Origin: Anaerococcus sp. Marseille-P3625
Lineage (GTDB): Bacteria; Bacillota; Clostridia; Tissierellales; Peptoniphilaceae
Length of the DNA stretch: 64,000 nucleotides
Direction of reading: 5' to 3'
Assembly (NCBI RefSeq): GCF_900232825.1
Contig: NZ_OCTP01000011.1
Location: 397,262-461,261 of the forward strand
Positions within the stretch are counted from its first letter, which is position 1. The number at the start of each line of letters is the position of its first letter. The notes beneath the pieces were generated by a model. It was given only the letters and a program-made list of their open reading frames with translations. It was not told the origin of the DNA and made no database searches. Below, piece by piece: positions 7,364-56,247 of this stretch. A program made the translations under genes and the position numbers.

Positions 7364-8569
7364 TTAGTCATTTTCTGAATAGAATTGCTCTAAGCTTTCG
7401 TAGAAGTCTTTAGATTCAGCACCATATTTTTCTTTTGCTTCTTTTAAAGCTTCTTGATATAAGTCTGTATTTACATGATCATCAATATTGATATCTTTAG
7501 CTTTTTCTTTTAAGAATCCTGTTTTATCAAGAATTCCCCAAGCTCTTTCAACTGATTTTCTAAGTGGGTCAACGTGAACTTTGTAGTGATCATCAAGCAT
7601 ATAAGCTGCTACATAATCTTCTTTTGCGTTGATTTTTGCAGCGTGTATTTTTAATGCTTCTTCTTTATTGTGTTCATAGAAATCTTGAGCTCTTATTAAA
7701 GCTATAAGAATATTTTTAATTGTGTTTGGATTATTTTTTACAAAATCGCTTTGAGCAACCATTCTACAGCAAGAGTAATTTGGCATTACTTCACCATGCC
7801 ATGTTACTATGTCTATGTCATCCATGTTTTTAACTGTGTAGCATTGACCTGTTCCCATAAGAGCATAATCAACTTCTCCACGAGTTACTGCTGCTAGTGC
7901 GTCATTGTAATCAGTGTATGTTTCCCAAGAAACTTCATTTAGTGGATCTTCTACTCCAGCATCCATAAGTGCTCCTGTAAAAGCAAAGTAGCTTGGGTTA
8001 CAAGCAAATTTCTTACCAACTAAATCTTTGATTCCGTTCCATTTAGTTCCTTTTTTAGCTACAACTGGCATAGCACCTTGAACCATGTGTCCACCAAATA
8101 TTGTTAAGTCAATACCAGCTGAAATTTGTTGAAGTGGATTTGATGTACCAGCATTTGATACAACATCAACTTTTCCTGTTGAAAGCATTGTCATTGCATC
8201 AGCATTTGCATCTGCAGGAACATTTTCAATTTCTAGTCCTTGATCTTTGAAATATCCCTTTTCTTCAGCTATTGTTACAAGTACGTTTCCGCTTGTACCG
8301 CTGTTCCATCTAACCTTGCTTACTTCTGGCTTGCCAGCTTCTTCTGTATTTTCTGCTGTTTCATCAGCTTTTTCAGCGTCATCTGTATTTTCTTCAGTTT
8401 TTTCGCTATTTTCTGCTTTTTCGTCAGTTTTTTCAGCAGATTCTGTGCTTTCTACTTGTTTGTCAGCATCTTTGCTGGCATCTTTGTCTGTATTATTTCC
8501 ACAAGCTGCAAATGAAATTGCCATTGCAAGTGTTAATAATGCTGTCATAAATTTTTTGGAACTTTCCAC
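7364..8569 (-). CDS. ABC transporter substrate-binding lipoprotein, SsuA/NMT1-like
   Basis: This is the extracellular solute receptor of the importer. A lipoprotein signal ends in FAAC (Cys at about 23). It is followed by an unusual 60-residue Asp/Glu/Lys/Ala-rich low-complexity linker (about 28-85) and then a two-lobed NMT1-type domain beginning KVRWNSGTSGNVLVTIAEEKGYF. The 401-residue length exceeds the usual 320-340 because of the linker, which may lift the domain through the thick wall. It lies between the ATPase and permease genes. The ligand is unknown. Confidence 0.9.
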   Translation of the reverse strand: MESSKKFMTALLTLAMAISFAACGNNTDKDASKDADKQVESTESAEKTDEKAENSEKTEENTDDAEKADETAENTEEAGKPEVSKVRWNSGTSGNVLVTIAEEKGYFKDQGLEIENVPADANADAMTMLSTGKVDVVSNAGTSNPLQQISAGIDLTIFGGHMVQGAMPVVAKKGTKWNGIKDLVGKKFACNPSYFAFTGALMDAGVEDPLNEVSWETYTDYNDALAAVTRGEVDYALMGTGQCYTVKNMDDIDIVTWHGEVMPNYSCCRMVAQSDFVKNNPNTIKNILIALIRAQDFYEHNKEEALKIHAAKINAKEDYVAAYMLDDHYKVHVDPLRKSVERAWGILDKTGFLKEKAKDINIDDHVNTDLYQEALKEAKEKYGAESKDFYESLEQFYSEND

Positions 8570-8616
8570 ATTCTCCTCCTTGTTATATTTATGTTAGTTT
8601 CCTTTTCTAGTTCATA

Positions 8617-9402
8617 TTACTTTATCTTTGATTTAACATCAAGGTTAATTTGTTTTATTAACTCATTTCTTAATTTTAAAGCTTCAACATCGTCAAATTG
8701 ATTATCACGACTTAGCTCCCAATCCTTTTTTGCCTTGTAATCAAAAATTATATGGCTTGGAGATTGACCTAAAACAAGTATCCTATTTCCTAGTAAAATC
8801 GCCTCGTCAACATCGTGAGTTACAAAAAATACGGTCTTTTTTTCTTCTTCCTTATCCCAAAGATCCTTAATCAAATCTTGAAGCCTTGCTCTTGTTACAG
8901 CATCGAGAGCGCCAAATGGTTCATCCATCAACAATATCGGAGGATTTGTGCTTAGAGATTGGGCTATTGCACATCTTTGCTGCATACCACCAGATAATTC
9001 TTTGGGAAATTTATCATAAACTTCACTTTCTAGACCAACTGCATCTATCATATCCAAGGCTTTTTCTTTTAATTTATTTTTATCTTCAGATGGAAAACAC
9101 TGCTTTAGGGCAAGCATTATATTTTCTCCAGCACTCATCCAAGGATATAAGCCGTAATCTTGAAATACAACTCCTCTTTTTAGGCTAGTTCCTTTGATTT
9201 CTTCACCATCTATGGTAATTTTCCCTCCAGTTGGCATTTCAAGTCCTGCTAAAAGTCTAAGCAAGGTACTTTTACCACATCCAGATTGTCCCAAAATACA
9301 GACAAATTCTCCAGAATTAATTTCTGTTGTAATATCATTAAGAATAAGTTTACCGCCTTCTTCATAAGCAAAAGATAAATTTTTTATACTTATATCACTC
9401 AT
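8617..9402 (-). CDS. ABC transporter ATPase, SsuB/TauB-like
   Basis: This cytoplasmic ATPase drives the importer encoded downstream. The 261-residue protein has Walker A GQSGCGKST (about 38-46), signature LSGGMQQR, Walker B ILLMDEPF and the switch histidine in VFFVTHDVDEA. The order of motifs and the short C-terminus match the nitrate/sulfonate/taurine ATPase group. It is the first gene of the three-gene operon. The upstream 110 bp are AT-rich and must hold the promoter. Confidence 0.94.
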   Translation of the reverse strand: MSDISIKNLSFAYEEGGKLILNDITTEINSGEFVCILGQSGCGKSTLLRLLAGLEMPTGGKITIDGEEIKGTSLKRGVVFQDYGLYPWMSAGENIMLALKQCFPSEDKNKLKEKALDMIDAVGLESEVYDKFPKELSGGMQQRCAIAQSLSTNPPILLMDEPFGALDAVTRARLQDLIKDLWDKEEEKKTVFFVTHDVDEAILLGNRILVLGQSPSHIIFDYKAKKDWELSRDNQFDDVEALKLRNELIKQINLDVKSKIK

Positions 9403-9462
9403 TATCTCTCCAATCTTATTTACTGCTAAAAATTTTACTAATATATAATATAATACACTTTA

Positions 9463-9504
9463 TAAAATATAAAAAAAGAAATCCCCAAAAAATTGAGAAT
9501 TTCT
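9463..9504 (-). terminator. Terminator of the ECF operon
   Basis: AGAAAT (9477-9482) pairs with ATTTCT (9499-9504), with an inner CAA/TTG helix. On the minus strand it is followed by a long T-rich stretch (complement of 9462-9476). It lies 9 bp past the ecfT stop. Confidence 0.75.
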
Positions 9505-9512
9505 CTTTATCT

Positions 9513-26216: not shown

Positions 26217-26879
26217 GCCTTCGTTTTTGGAGGGCGGCTTTAAGGGACTTTCGATTGTCCCTCCAAAGCCCCCTCCAAACCACCCAGCAAACCTCACCCT
26301 ATAAACGACCATTGCATGGAGCAATAAATGTAGGAATTGCTTCGCAATGTCCTATTTGAAATTATCATCACAAATTCGAGACAAAAAACTGACTGATTTT
26401 TCAAACTTTTTAAAACTATTTTTCAAAAAAAGAATTCGCGGAGCGAACTTCTTCTGCTCATTGCTCCACGCAGTGGCGGCGGGAGATAAAAGCCCATTGA
26501 TTTTGGGCTTTTATCCCGAAAACAGAGTGCGGTAGCACGTAGGAGCTTCGAAGAAGCGAGTTTTCGTAGAACAAGGGTAAGGGGGTTTGGGGGAGATAAA
26601 CACCCATTGATTTTGGGTGTTTATCCCGAAAACAGAGTGCGGTAGCACGGAAGAGCTTCGAAGAAGCGGGTTTTCGTGGGACGTAGGGGTCTGTCCTCCA
26701 GAAGCCGGACGGGCTAGTAACCCCTCGTCCCTACGCCCCAAAAACGAAGCAATTTTTTTAAATAATAGAATAATAAAAGAAATCTAATTATTATTAAATT
26801 CACAATAAAAAAATATTTCTATGTTTTTATTTTGATTTTTTTAAACCCAATCTTAAAGCCGCCCTCCAAGGACGAAGGC
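26217..26879 (+). mobile_element. MITE-like repeat element, copy 1 (enlarged)
   Basis: Layout: module A (26217-26360), AT-rich linker containing ACTGACTGAT, module B (26431-26752), AT-rich spacer, then an inverted terminal sequence (26852-26879). The ends are inverted repeats of GCCTTCGTYYTTGGAGGGCGG. It is about 180 bp longer than the 480-bp standard because module B holds a tandem 110-bp structured unit and a larger terminal hairpin loop (around 26690-26718). No protein is credibly encoded, so movement would need a transposase from elsewhere. Confidence 0.8.
26480..26699 (+). repeat. Tandem pair of 110-bp structured units inside module B
   Basis: Two units, exactly 110 bp apart. Each has a 12-bp hairpin around loop TTGATTT (arms 26485-26496/26504-26515 and 26595-26606/26614-26625). 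A predicted three-way junction follows: CGAAAAC...GTTTTCG enclosing GTGC-GGTA-GCAC and GCTTC-GAA-GAAGC. The hairpin arms differ between units at two base pairs, and in both cases the partner base has changed too, so pairing is kept. Confidence 0.8.
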
Positions 26880-30786: not shown

Positions 30787-31137
30787 GTCTTCGCTCTTGG
30801 AGGGCGGCTTTAAGGGACTTTCGATTGTCCCTCCAAAGCCCCCTCCAAACCACCCCGCAAACCTCACCCTTAAACGACCATTGCATGGAGCAACAATGGT
30901 AGGAATTGCTTCGCAATGTCCTATTTGAAAATAAAGTTAGAAAATTGGAATAAAAAACTGACTGATATTCTAAAGTGTTTATAACTCAATTATTTCAAAA
31001 AAAAGAATTCGCGGAGCGAACTTCTTCTGCTCATTGCTCCACGCAGTGGCGGCGGGGGTAACAAGGGTAAGGGGGTTTGGGGGAAGGGACGTAGGGGTCT
31101 CCGTAACCCCTCGTCCCTACGCCCCAAGAACGGAGGC
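30787..31137 (+). mobile_element. MITE-like repeat element, copy 2 (3' truncated)
   Basis: Module A (30787-30929), ACTGACTGAT linker and module B (31007-31137) are intact. The AT-rich spacer and distal inverted end are missing, replaced by the TCGACT-type repeat at 31160. Module B ends in the hairpin GGGACGTAGGGGT...ACCCCTCGTCCC. Confidence 0.8.
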
Positions 31138-31282: not shown

Positions 31283-31761
31283 GCCTTCGTCCTTGGAGGG
31301 CGGCTTTAAGGGACTTTCGATTGTCCCTCCAAAGCCCCCTCCAAACCACCCCGCAAACCTCACCCTTAAACGACCATTGCATGGAGCAACAAGGGTAGGA
31401 ATTGCTTCGCAATGTCCTATTTGATAATAAAATTAGAAAATTGAAACAATAAACTGACTGATGTTCCAAAGCTTTTTAAAACCAATGATTAAAAAAAGAA
31501 GAATTCGCGGAGCGAACTTCTTCTGCTCATTGCCCCACGCAGTGGCGGCGGGGGTAACAAGGGTAAGGGGGTTTGGGGGAAGGGACGTAGGGGTCTCCGT
31601 AACCCCTCGTCCCTACGCCCCAAGAACGAAGCTAATTGTTAATAAAACAAATAAATAAAAGATATAAAAAGTTTAAAAAATTTGTAATTAAAAAAATATT
31701 TTTATATTTTATTTTGATTTTTTATAATTCAATCTTAAAGCCGCCCTCCAAGGACGGAGCC
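31283..31761 (+). mobile_element. MITE-like repeat element, copy 3 (complete, 479 bp)
   Basis: A complete copy: module A (31283-31424), linker with ACTGACTGAT, module B (31500-31635), AT-rich spacer and inverted terminal sequence (31733-31761). It has the same length as the complete minus-strand copy at 33894-34370 within two bases, which defines the standard element. Short open frames inside it give Pro/Arg-rich nonsense peptides and are not genes. Confidence 0.85.
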
Positions 31762-33893: not shown

Positions 33894-34370
33894 GCTTCGT
33901 TCTTGGAGGGCGGCTATAAGATTGAGTTTAAAAAATTAAGAAAAAACATATAAATATTTTTTATTTTTAGATTATTTAGTTATCTAACTTCTATTATGTT
34001 TTCGTTTTTTTAAAAAATTGCCTTCGTTTTTGGGGCGTAGGGACGAGGGGTTACGGAGACCCCTACGTCCCTTCCCCCAAACCCCCTTACCCTTGTTACC
34101 CCCGCCGCCACTGCGTGGGGCAATGAGTAGTAGAAGTTCGCTTCGCGAATTCTTTTTTTTAATAATTGGCTTTTTAAAAACTTTAGCTCATCAATCAGTT
34201 TATTCTCTCAATTTATTAAAATTCATTTCAAATAGGACATTGCGAAGCAATTCCTACATTTATTGCTCCATGCAATGGTCGTTTATAGGGTGAGGTTTGC
34301 TGGAAGGTTTGGAGGGGGCTTTGGAGGGACAATCGAAAGTCCCTTAAAGCCGCCCTCCAAGAACGGAGGC
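33894..34370 (-). mobile_element. MITE-like repeat element, copy 4 (complete, inverted, 477 bp)
   Basis: In minus orientation: module A (34370-34228), linker, module B (34158-34022), AT-rich spacer and distal end (33894-33921). The ends are inverted repeats of about 28 bp. It is oriented opposite to copies 1-3. Its module-A end begins the 141-bp sequence repeated exactly at 36203. Confidence 0.85.
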
Positions 34371-35859: not shown

Positions 35860-36230
35860 TAAAAATGGAACATTCCGAAGCAATTCCTTTTTGAAAATAA
35901 AATTAGAAAATTGATACAATATACTGACTGATATTTTCAAATTTTATTAAACATATTTTTAAAAAAGAAGAATTCGCGGAGCGAACTTCTACTACTCATT
36001 GCTCCCTGCAAGGGCGGCGGGGGTAACAAGGGTAAGGGGGTTTGGGGGAAGGGACGTAGGGGTCTCCGTAACCCCTCGTCCCTACGCCCCAAGAACGGAG
36101 GCAATTTTTTATAAAAAACGAAAACATAAAAGAAATAAGATAACTAAATAATCTACAAACAAAAATTATTTATATGTTTTTTCTTAATTTTTTAAACTCA
36201 ATCTTAAAGCCGCCCTCCAAGAACGGAGGC
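35860..36230 (+). mobile_element. MITE-like repeat element, copy 5 (5' truncated)
   Basis: Only a degenerate remnant of module A is left (GAAGCAATTCC at about 35877). The linker with ACTGACTGAT, module B (35968-36105), AT-rich spacer and inverted distal end (36203-36230) are present. Confidence 0.8.
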
Positions 36231-54913: not shown

Positions 54914-55942
54914 TTAGTATGATGCTAATACCTTAACCCAGGCATTGTTGTAAACTTCCATATAATCCTCTAAATCCTTAAACATTTCTATTTTTGGAAG
55001 CGTTTTTTCATCTGGATAGGCTTCGTTGGAATTTTTGATATAATCTGGTAACATTTCCCTTACTCCCTTAAGTGGAGAGGTAAAGCCTTCCATCCACTCG
55101 GCATTGGCTGCAGAAATTTTTGGATTTGTAAAATAATTTATAAATATTTCTGCGTTTTTTTTGTTTTTTGCTTTTTTGGGAATCGCTAGGCTATCTACCT
55201 GACGGTTGCCGCCTTCTTTTGGTATGACATATTTAAGATTAGGATTTTCCTTACTCATAAGCAAGGCATCGCCAGAATACATTACTGTCATTGCCGCATC
55301 GCCTTGAATTATTACATCGCGTGCCTCATCTGTAAGATAAGCATAAACTAGAGGTTTTTGCTTGATTAATTCTTCAGTTGCTTGGTTAATTTCTTTCATA
55401 TCTGTGGTATTTATGGAATAACCTAATTTTTGCAAGGCAACAGATATTGAAAGTCGAGGAAGATCATACATAATAATCTCACCCTTATATTTTGGATCCC
55501 ACAAGTCAGCCCAAGAATCTATGGGCTTATCGACCATATCCTTGTTATAAACTATGCCAAAAGATGAAGTGAAATACGGCACTGTGTATTTGCCTTCTGG
55601 ATCAAAGGGTAGGTTTTTGTATTGGTCCATAATATATTTGGCATTTGGTACATTTGAAAAATCAATCGGCGCTAGCATATCATATTTTAAAAGCTTTTCT
55701 ACCATATAATCCATTGGGACTACAACATCGTAATTGTTGGCAGATTGTGTTAATTTTACAAACATTTCTTCATCTGATTGAAAAGTTTGATATATAACTT
55801 CAATACCAGTATCTTTTTCAAATTGTTTTATCAAATCCATATCCATGTACTCGCCAGCGTTAAAAACAACGACTTGCTCCTTATTTTTGCTGGCACAAGA
55901 AGTGACAAACAAAAGCAAAAAAATCATAAATATCTTTTTCAT
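54914..55942 (-). CDS. potD: Spermidine/putrescine-binding lipoprotein PotD
   Basis: A 342-residue polyamine receptor with lipobox LFVTSC (Cys about 16). The mature part has VVFNAGEYMDMDLIKQFEKDTGIEV, YDVVVPMDYMVEKLL, YFTSSFGIVYNKDMV and the aromatic and acidic positions typical of PotD. It is unusual in being the first gene of the operon (potDABC, not potABCD). AAAGGGGGAGG precedes the start, and a long leader with a terminator lies upstream. Confidence 0.94.
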   Translation of the reverse strand: MKKIFMIFLLLFVTSCASKNKEQVVVFNAGEYMDMDLIKQFEKDTGIEVIYQTFQSDEEMFVKLTQSANNYDVVVPMDYMVEKLLKYDMLAPIDFSNVPNAKYIMDQYKNLPFDPEGKYTVPYFTSSFGIVYNKDMVDKPIDSWADLWDPKYKGEIIMYDLPRLSISVALQKLGYSINTTDMKEINQATEELIKQKPLVYAYLTDEARDVIIQGDAAMTVMYSGDALLMSKENPNLKYVIPKEGGNRQVDSLAIPKKAKNKKNAEIFINYFTNPKISAANAEWMEGFTSPLKGVREMLPDYIKNSNEAYPDEKTLPKIEMFKDLEDYMEVYNNAWVKVLASY

Positions 55943-56213
55943 TTAAACCTCCCCCTTTAATTTAAAATCTAAAAAAAGACAAAAAAAGTCCTTGCACATT
56001 ATTTTGAACAAGGATTTTATGGTCATATCTACTTACTCATTGTTTAAATCCTATAGATATGAATTTATTATTCGGATTTGGCAATTTGCCCCCTGTGGTT
56101 GTGAGTTTTAACCATATAAATGAGTAAAAACAATGGCTAAATGTGAGTTTGTCCCACCAGTTCTTACCCCACAAGTGTTCTTAATGTTTTCTAGATTTTA
56201 TTATATTGTAACT
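55943..56213 (-). promoter_or_regulatory. Long structured leader of potDABC (candidate riboswitch or attenuator)
   Basis: Between the promoter and potD lie about 270 nt able to form: P1 CTTGTGG (56175-56169) with CCACAGG (56098-56092); P2 GTGGG/CTCAC; P3 AGCCAT/ATGGTT; and AAATCC (56079-56074) with GGATTT (56051-56046). The P3 loop sequence TTACTCATT (56127-56119) is complementary to AATGAGTAA (56041-56033). GGATTT can instead pair with AAATCC in the terminator 5' arm (56017-56012), which would be an antiterminator. I recognise no known riboswitch class. Confidence 0.65.
55981..56018 (-). terminator. Leader terminator upstream of potD
   Basis: TCCTTG (minus 56014-56009) pairs with CAAGGA (minus 55994-55989), extended by A-U and G-U pairs, then TTTTTTTGTCTTTTTTT. 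It ends the leader 39 bp before the potD start, so read-through must be regulated. Confidence 0.85.
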
Positions 56214-56219
56214 AAGCTA

Positions 56220-56247
56220 ATTATAATATAAAAACTGCAAAAGTCAA
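56220..56247 (-). promoter_or_regulatory. Promoter of potDABC
   Basis: On the minus strand TTGACT (56242-56247) and perfect TATAAT (56220-56225) with a 16-bp spacer. It directly follows the trkH stop at 56248. Confidence 0.8.

Follow-up and report, generated by a model that had tools for sequence, protein, structure and literature searches.

What controls the pot operon of Anaerococcus sp. Marseille-P3625, and to which signal would such control respond? The operon lies within the 64,000-nt stretch of DNA that we analyzed (hereafter, the window), on its reverse strand, which also carries every leader feature described below. Its first gene encodes a potD-like, solute-binding lipoprotein (positions 55942 to 54914) whose relatives in Pfam, PDB, and NCBIfam are extracellular solute-binding proteins and PotD/PotF. 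It is followed by potA (54904 to 53840), an ATPase gene with ABC_tran and TOBE_2 domains that in NCBIfam scores best with models of polyamine ATPases, and by the permease genes potB (53856 to 53032) and potC (53035 to 52241), whose best matches are the PotB and PotC models, respectively; all of these NCBIfam matches fall below cut-off. A first-pass annotation had read the DNA in front of potD as a transcription-termination switch and had named a polyamine as its natural signal.

Promoter, leader, and terminator upstream of potD

The first-pass annotation described a consensus-like promoter ahead of the leader and a strong terminator just before potD, and both were recovered. The promoter is of the sigma-70 type (56247 to 56220), with a -35 element TTGACT (56247 to 56242), a 16-nt spacer, and a -10 element TATAAT (56225 to 56220), for a total of 11 of 12 consensus matches; TTGAC and TATAAT were retained in all nine aligned genomes. 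The intrinsic terminator (56014 to 55981) pairs TCCTTG (56014 to 56009) with CAAGGA (55994 to 55989) and continues into a U7 tract (55987 to 55981) that ends 38 nt from the potD start at 55942. This spacing, measured from the U-tract to the potD ATG, is 24 to 38 nt in the six genomes where it is short. A simple scan for terminators missed the element; its hairpin appears in the folds, with a pair probability of 0.94 to 0.98 in full-length RNA. The stem is invariant in all nine genomes and so offers no covariation. We withdrew the idea of a functional 14-nt terminator loop, given that the folds contain an inner CA/UG extension and that unrelated terminators have the same loop. Overall, the stretch from 56215 to 55943 folds at -59.2 kcal/mol, a value that none of 200 dinucleotide shuffles equaled (z = -3.15).

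Distribution and conservation of the leader RNA

The conserved core of the leader is 210 nt long (56187 to 55978), scores 245.6 bits here with a covariance model, and measures 208 to 212 nt across nine genomes after trimming to the conserved part. In a DNA search of 130 genomes of the family, 55 gave a match at E up to 0.01, only nine of them long (83 to 100% identity, 223 to 551 bits) and all of these from Anaerococcus; pieces scoring 35.6 to 42.8 bits were dropped. The RNA is thereby found in 9 of 31 Anaerococcus genomes. From the nine copies we built a covariance model, which at E up to 0.01 picked out the same nine among the 130 genomes and no others. With this model, 391 genomes of the class yielded two Anaerococcus and three weak matches (L071 to L073, 28 to 31 bits), and 398 genomes of the phylum yielded G000 and one further match (L182, 32.7 bits). 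The three weak matches were rejected as distant copies because their similarity is mainly to the terminator. No comparable RNA was found outside Anaerococcus in the family, class, and phylum searches, which pre-filter candidates (for each listed genome, 18 were scored in the 130-genome search and 6 in the other two) and could therefore miss diverged copies. Plasmids yielded no copy of the RNA, viral contigs had no match to its core pattern, and the best covariance-model hit among 50 other potD loci had an E value of 0.2.

Within the nine genomes, mean pairwise identity of the RNA was 90.6%, compared with 91.4%, 81.0%, and 55.3% at second, first, and third codon positions of potD and with 62.8 to 65.0% in the DNA directly upstream of the RNA. 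Because identity of the RNA far exceeds that of potD third positions and of the upstream DNA, we conclude that the RNA is under strong purifying selection. The first-pass annotation would have counted its reading as refuted had the leader not been conserved before the pot genes of related bacteria; it is conserved within this nine-genome subset of Anaerococcus and not outside it.

Covarying helices and two pseudoknots

Aligning the leaders of the nine genomes, a check that the annotation had proposed, bore out its internal hairpins and defined a compact fold. Helix P2 (56175 to 56169 with 56098 to 56092) closes a three-way junction around P3 and P4; its seven pairs are formed in 100% of cells, and one shows a two-sided change. 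P3 (56157 to 56153 with 56147 to 56143) has five pairs, one with a two-sided change from GC to AU in a single sequence. The ten pairs of P4 (56141 to 56132 with 56116 to 56107) are formed in 96.7% of cells and include four with two-sided changes; the probability of this helix was 0.38 to 0.46 in single-sequence folds of G000, G024, and G032, which ignore pseudoknots. Downstream, a GGCA/TGCC mini-hairpin, P5 (56090 to 56080), is present in all nine genomes if a 4-nt loop is allowed in G019; on the MAFFT alignment, 94.4% of its cells are paired, with no two-sided change. Finally, P6 (56062 to 56054 with 56031 to 56023) has nine pairs formed in 100% of cells, two of them with two-sided changes, and a probability of 0.49 in the G019 single-sequence fold and 0.91 to 0.99 in the other eight.

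The 22-nt loop of P6 holds the 3' strands of two predicted pseudoknots. In the first, PK1, the P4 loop strand ACTCATT (56125 to 56119) pairs with AATGAGT (56041 to 56035). The first-pass annotation had pointed to a 9-nt complementarity at this place (TTACTCATT/AATGAGTAA), which is present; 7 bp of it are kept in all nine genomes, with one varying pair (UA to UG) and no two-sided change. In the second, PK2, AAATCC (56079 to 56074) pairs with GGATTT (56051 to 56046). All six pairs can form in all nine genomes after a one-base shift in G019 (AAACCT with GGGTTT), and 96.3% of cells are paired on the MAFFT alignment. PK2 has no two-sided change in the formal sense; one of its pairs, which is U-A, U-G, or C-G depending on the genome, is supportive.

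Taken together, helices P2 to P6, the terminator, PK1, and PK2 had standard pairs in 98.6% of 486 cells, which represent fewer independent events than their number since the nine copies include near-duplicates (G016/G031 and G024/G032/G034). When partners were slid by one to three columns as a control, 33.5 to 44.2% of cells were paired. Two-sided changes occurred in eight pairs, spread over P2, P3, P4, and P6, compared with 2.5 in shuffled alignments, none of 500 of which reached as many, and the covariation score exceeded that of all shuffles. One of the five measures, the number of further pair types, was unexceptional (20 versus 18.1 in shuffles, with 58 of 500 as high).

A covarying leader could also be read by a protein (an antiterminator or repressor), by a tRNA, or by a ribosome translating a very short frame in the leader. 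Structured leaders of such size also serve proteins, and a three-codon frame, ATG-RGT-AAR-TAG, is kept in the P6 loop of all nine genomes. A pair of pseudoknots in a span of 150 nt has more the look of an aptamer, however, and the RNA has no T-box match, either in the window at the gathering score or, with E values up to 5, in three of its copies. A 14- to 16-codon ATG frame at alignment column 74 lacks its ATG in G019. We regard an attenuator of this kind as quite unlikely. The three-codon frame itself (56040 to 56029) may owe its conservation to its overlap with PK1 and P6. A leader peptide was also considered and rejected, as no frame of useful length retains its start in all nine genomes.

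Competing pairings at the terminator

A second AAATCC (56017 to 56012) lies at the 5' arm of the terminator, where it provides an alternative partner for the GGATTT of PK2 and thus a candidate antiterminator. As the annotation had suggested, the segment has two possible partners, and this holds throughout: judged from sequence only, GGRTTT can form all six pairs in each of the nine genomes, either with the terminator arm or, upstream, with AAAYCC/AAACCT. The AAATCC of the terminator arm is invariant, so the GGRTTT/terminator-arm pairing has no two-sided change.

A further candidate antiterminator, which we call P1 (56187 to 55996), would join the 5' end of the RNA to the terminator. Its 5' strand, ACATT-aa-GAACA (56187 to 56176), can pair with a 3' side, TGTTC...AATGT (56010 to 55996), that lies within the terminator hairpin: ACATT (56187 to 56183) with AATGT (56000 to 55996), and GAACA (56180 to 56176) with TGTTC (56010 to 56006). 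In transcripts ending before the 3' arm of the terminator, the mean pair probability of each half-helix was 0.80 to 0.94 (ViennaRNA). The duplex has an energy of -6.5 to -7.0 kcal/mol; for four of the nine sequences the 5' end was shuffled, and 1.7 to 2.9% of the shuffles did as well. The duplex is invariant and hence without covariation. Once the RNA is full-length, the terminator is favored by 1.5 to 4.2 kcal/mol in all nine genomes, with pseudoknots left out of the energies. Energies that favor candidate P1 before the 3' arm of the terminator is made, and the terminator afterwards, are consistent with a cis-acting attenuator. Since the terminator wins thermodynamically in every genome, transcription of the leader would simply stop there unless kinetics or a ligand intervened. 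As for the sign of the switch, the two candidate antiterminators point in opposite directions.

The closed P1 proposed by the first-pass annotation, in which AAAATCTAGAAAAC pairs with the T-rich segment that follows the terminator, is a different helix and did not hold up. It is AT-rich and not conserved across the nine genomes; the duplex exists in the Marseille-P3625 genome (-10.5 kcal/mol), and in the nine genomes the 5' and 3' flanks averaged -4.39 kcal/mol when paired with their own partners versus -4.51 kcal/mol when swapped, on which grounds we rejected it. What stands of the proposed termination switch is a structured leader that covaries, whose alternative pairings at the terminator exclude each other, and that has potD as the next gene in nine of nine genomes; the outer P1 falls away.

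Genomic neighborhood

In all nine genomes, the RNA is followed by potD, potA, potB, and potC, and then by genes that we read by eye as rpL13 and rpS9. The upstream neighbors of the RNA differ: TrkH (labeled by eye) in four genomes, and in five thiD, which stands alone in G016 and G031 and is accompanied by a second gene in G019, G020 (cytX), and G021 (tenA). The second gene of G019 is a cytX-sized frame, judged by size only. The thiD genes next to the RNA lie, for instance, at 7539 to 9507 of locus L124 (with cytX), 4319 to 5122 of L125, and 6154 to 7625 of L131 (with tenA). We considered a link to TPP or HMP and rejected it. G000, G024, G032, and G034 have no thiD match and all keep the RNA and the operon, so HMP salvage is not required.

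In three genomes (G024, G032, and G034), 675 to 786 nt separate the RNA from potD. Most of this DNA is a high-copy repeat (L127, 5252 to 5984; L128, 6156 to 6941; L129, 5127 to 5801), with 32 to 39 matching pieces per genome and a core that is inverted in G034; the RNA is intact in each case. On the pot strand, the repeat contains promoter-like sites (L127, 5942 to 5969, 9 of 12 consensus matches; L129, 5529 to 5558, 10 of 12), which could serve as potD promoters in G024 and G034, the two genomes scanned. The repeat region of L129 also has two terminator-like sites. Pieces of the same repeat family, with 74 to 85% identity to part of the G024 insert, occur in the window at 26425 to 26483, 30994 to 31128, 31489 to 31624, 34032 to 34162, and 35959 to 36093.

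These insertions bear on whether the RNA acts on potDABC at all. It could instead be a stand-alone, trans-acting small RNA, with the operon behind it by descent and dependent on some other promoter or on basal read-through. Such an RNA would have its own promoter and invariant terminator, as this one does, and it could stay intact when a repeat parts it from potD, as in three of the nine genomes. Weak promoter-like sites in the intervening DNA of the two loci scanned would fit as well, although the counts of such sites in these regions, 5 versus 3.0 (standard deviation, 2.1) and 6 versus 2.9 (standard deviation, 1.9) in shuffles, are higher by only about one standard deviation. Yet potD is the next gene in all nine genomes even though the upstream neighbors change, the 24 to 38 nt left between the U-tract and the potD ATG in six of them offer little room for a second promoter, and two AAATCC-type strands vying for one partner are typical of a switch acting in cis. 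On balance, we consider a stand-alone RNA unlikely.

The other 22 Anaerococcus genomes carry a different PotD, with 33 to 38% identity, and none of the 31 genomes has both; a scan of genome contigs with PotD gave two loci. In the ten of these 22 loci that we inspected, the gene order is potABCD, -10-like boxes lie near potA in the preceding 260 nt, and no comparable long leader was seen by eye before the operon. Rfam models gave no match at the gathering score in those ten loci or in two from other genera. Among ten pot loci fetched from other genera, potA is preceded in the four that were scanned by an HTH_3 gene that also matches cupin (below cut-off in one), in two more by a frame of that size, and in four by neither. 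We rejected the idea that the RNA replaced such a PotR regulator, since no close copy of the HTH-cupin protein was found in the 31 Anaerococcus genomes; HTH matches there, in genomes with or without the RNA, were general ones and a few weak full-length matches with 26 to 28% identity.

The binding site of the RNA-linked PotD

If the leader senses the compound that the operon imports, the binding protein should hint at its identity. The potD product is a PotD/PotF homolog (4eqb, E = 2.5e-73; 1pot, E = 7.3e-60) that scores below the NCBIfam equivalog cut-offs. According to one report on E. coli PotD, E36, D168, E171, and D257 contact the amines of the substrate and W34, Y37, W229, and W255 its chain (PMC11414716); according to another, the distal site consists of S83, Y85, D168, E171, and Q327 (PMC8666671). 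The nine RNA-linked proteins retain E36, Y37, Y85, and D257, and all nine have A34, L168, L171, Y229, Q255, and F293, such that the acidic and aromatic spermidine site is not found intact in them. We compared these proteins with 43 usable relatives, of which 41 are distinct (L086/L120 and L099/L121 are identical) and three partial; L085 was dropped. Position 171 is D or E in 43 of 43 relatives; W occupies position 34 in 39 of the 41 with a residue there and position 255 in 39 of 43. Positions 168 and 229 are less telling because residue 168 is mostly S or G in the relatives and Y229 is common there. The PotD proteins of the ten inspected operons of the other Anaerococcus type retain W34, E171, and W255. 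In the permeases, one stretch was compared for each: PotC has K or R after YxxA/V/S, as in relatives, and PotB has GGQ in the nine RNA-linked loci versus GGN in others.

The natural signal named by the first-pass annotation was a polyamine. A riboswitch for spermidine or putrescine, in which binding favors termination and shuts off the polyamine's own importer, would suit an operon that resembles Pot systems, a PotD that keeps E36 and D257, and a PotC stretch like that of conventional relatives. The mutual exclusion of the two Pot types among the 31 genomes is also compatible with both doing the same job, and the same substrate could be imported despite the changed site. Against this, the substitutions at positions 34, 168, 171, 255, and 293 are shared by all nine RNA-linked proteins, and the published spermidine riboswitch is a variant of SAM-I (PMC10853860), a family with no match at E up to 5 in the three copies searched. 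The polyamine signal is weakened because the RNA-linked PotD has replaced spermidine-site residues that relatives keep in a largely polyamine-compatible form. We find a polyamine riboswitch quite unlikely. With the proximal acids kept, the transported ligand probably has one primary amine and a nonpolar distal part, rather than being spermidine.

A proposed mechanism

Compared across the nine genomes by sequence, the leader has the general makeup of a riboswitch, namely, a conserved and covarying structured 5' domain and an expression platform with mutually exclusive pairings, and potD is the next gene; from this we infer regulated termination with a ligand as the signal. We consider it fairly probable that the leader is a cis-acting, riboswitch-type transcription attenuator governing potDABC. 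The transcript from the promoter at 56247 to 56220 would fold into a compact domain, consisting of the P2/P3/P4 three-way junction, P5, and P6, with both pseudoknots docking into the P6 loop. In the off state, GGRTTT would be held by the upstream AAAYCC in PK2, leaving the terminator free to form. In the on state, GGRTTT, the 5' end of the transcript, or both would pair with the 5' half of the terminator, and polymerase would read through. The likeliest trigger would be a small molecule or ion that stabilizes the pseudoknotted fold. By the logic of feedback, the transported compound would be the first candidate, with the ligand turning expression off as PK2 formation frees the terminator. The sign would be the opposite if candidate P1 were part of the fold that binds the ligand.

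More tentatively, the leader may contain a double-pseudoknot aptamer of a new riboswitch class that senses a primary amine other than a polyamine and controls a Pot-type importer re-tooled for the same compound, a specific proposal that we hold as possible but doubtful. If it is true, sensor and transporter changed their specificity together in a subset of Anaerococcus. As an orphan riboswitch candidate, the leader comes with a good structural model, a credible expression platform, and a single operon downstream, which makes the question of its ligand directly testable. The substrate of the Pot-type transporter is itself doubtful, so that whatever is learned of the ligand of either the RNA or the transporter narrows the choice for the other. 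The locus also carries a warning that a "Pot" annotation in Anaerococcus is no proof of polyamine uptake.

Comparison with known RNAs

An Rfam scan, another of the checks proposed at the outset, matched no known class: the families of Rfam 15 gave no match at the gathering score anywhere in the 64-kb window or in the loci of the other eight copies, and a permissive search (E up to 5) of the copies in G000, G016, and G021 gave only chance-level matches. The leader did not match 6S RNA (RF00013); the only 6S-like match in this genome lies elsewhere (C11, 525793 to 525960; 30.2 bits, below cut-off). The top sub-threshold match was the PyrG leader (RF02371), at 22.5 bits here and 21.1 and 23.3 bits in two other copies (gathering score, 65; E = 0.4 to 1.2). 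Its one stem aligns to the terminator of this RNA, and the downstream gene here is potD rather than pyrG. TPP-like sequences (RF00059), below cut-off, precede the neighboring thiD in G016, G019, and G020 and do not fall within this RNA.

Among polyamine-related leaders, the spermidine riboswitch is described as having the four-stem architecture of SAM-I and as preceding speE, speB, and ldcC (PMC10853860). The two RNAs are alike in being terminator-controlling leaders linked to polyamine-related genes. However, the covarying fold of the potD leader does not have the four stems of SAM-I, and instead of biosynthesis genes it precedes a potDABC operon with a changed binding site. Fragments of Borrelia potB are reported to respond to spermidine (PMC10319736). 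Another parallel, by description, is the "ABC-leader" of potABCD in the gammaproteobacteria Haemophilus somnus and Pasteurella multocida, which likewise places a premature terminator before a pot operon; that account leaves open whether an aptamer or a protein factor is involved (PMC2965389). Among the papers listed by searches of the open-licence PMC literature on riboswitches, Anaerococcus, and pot operons, no earlier description of this RNA was evident.

In adenine-type switches such as pbuE, the 3' strand of P1 overlaps the terminator. The potD leader differs from these in having no Rfam purine match and a P1 that lacks covariation support. Nevertheless, its candidate P1, which pairs the 5' end with the 5' half of the terminator, would likewise give read-through when formed.
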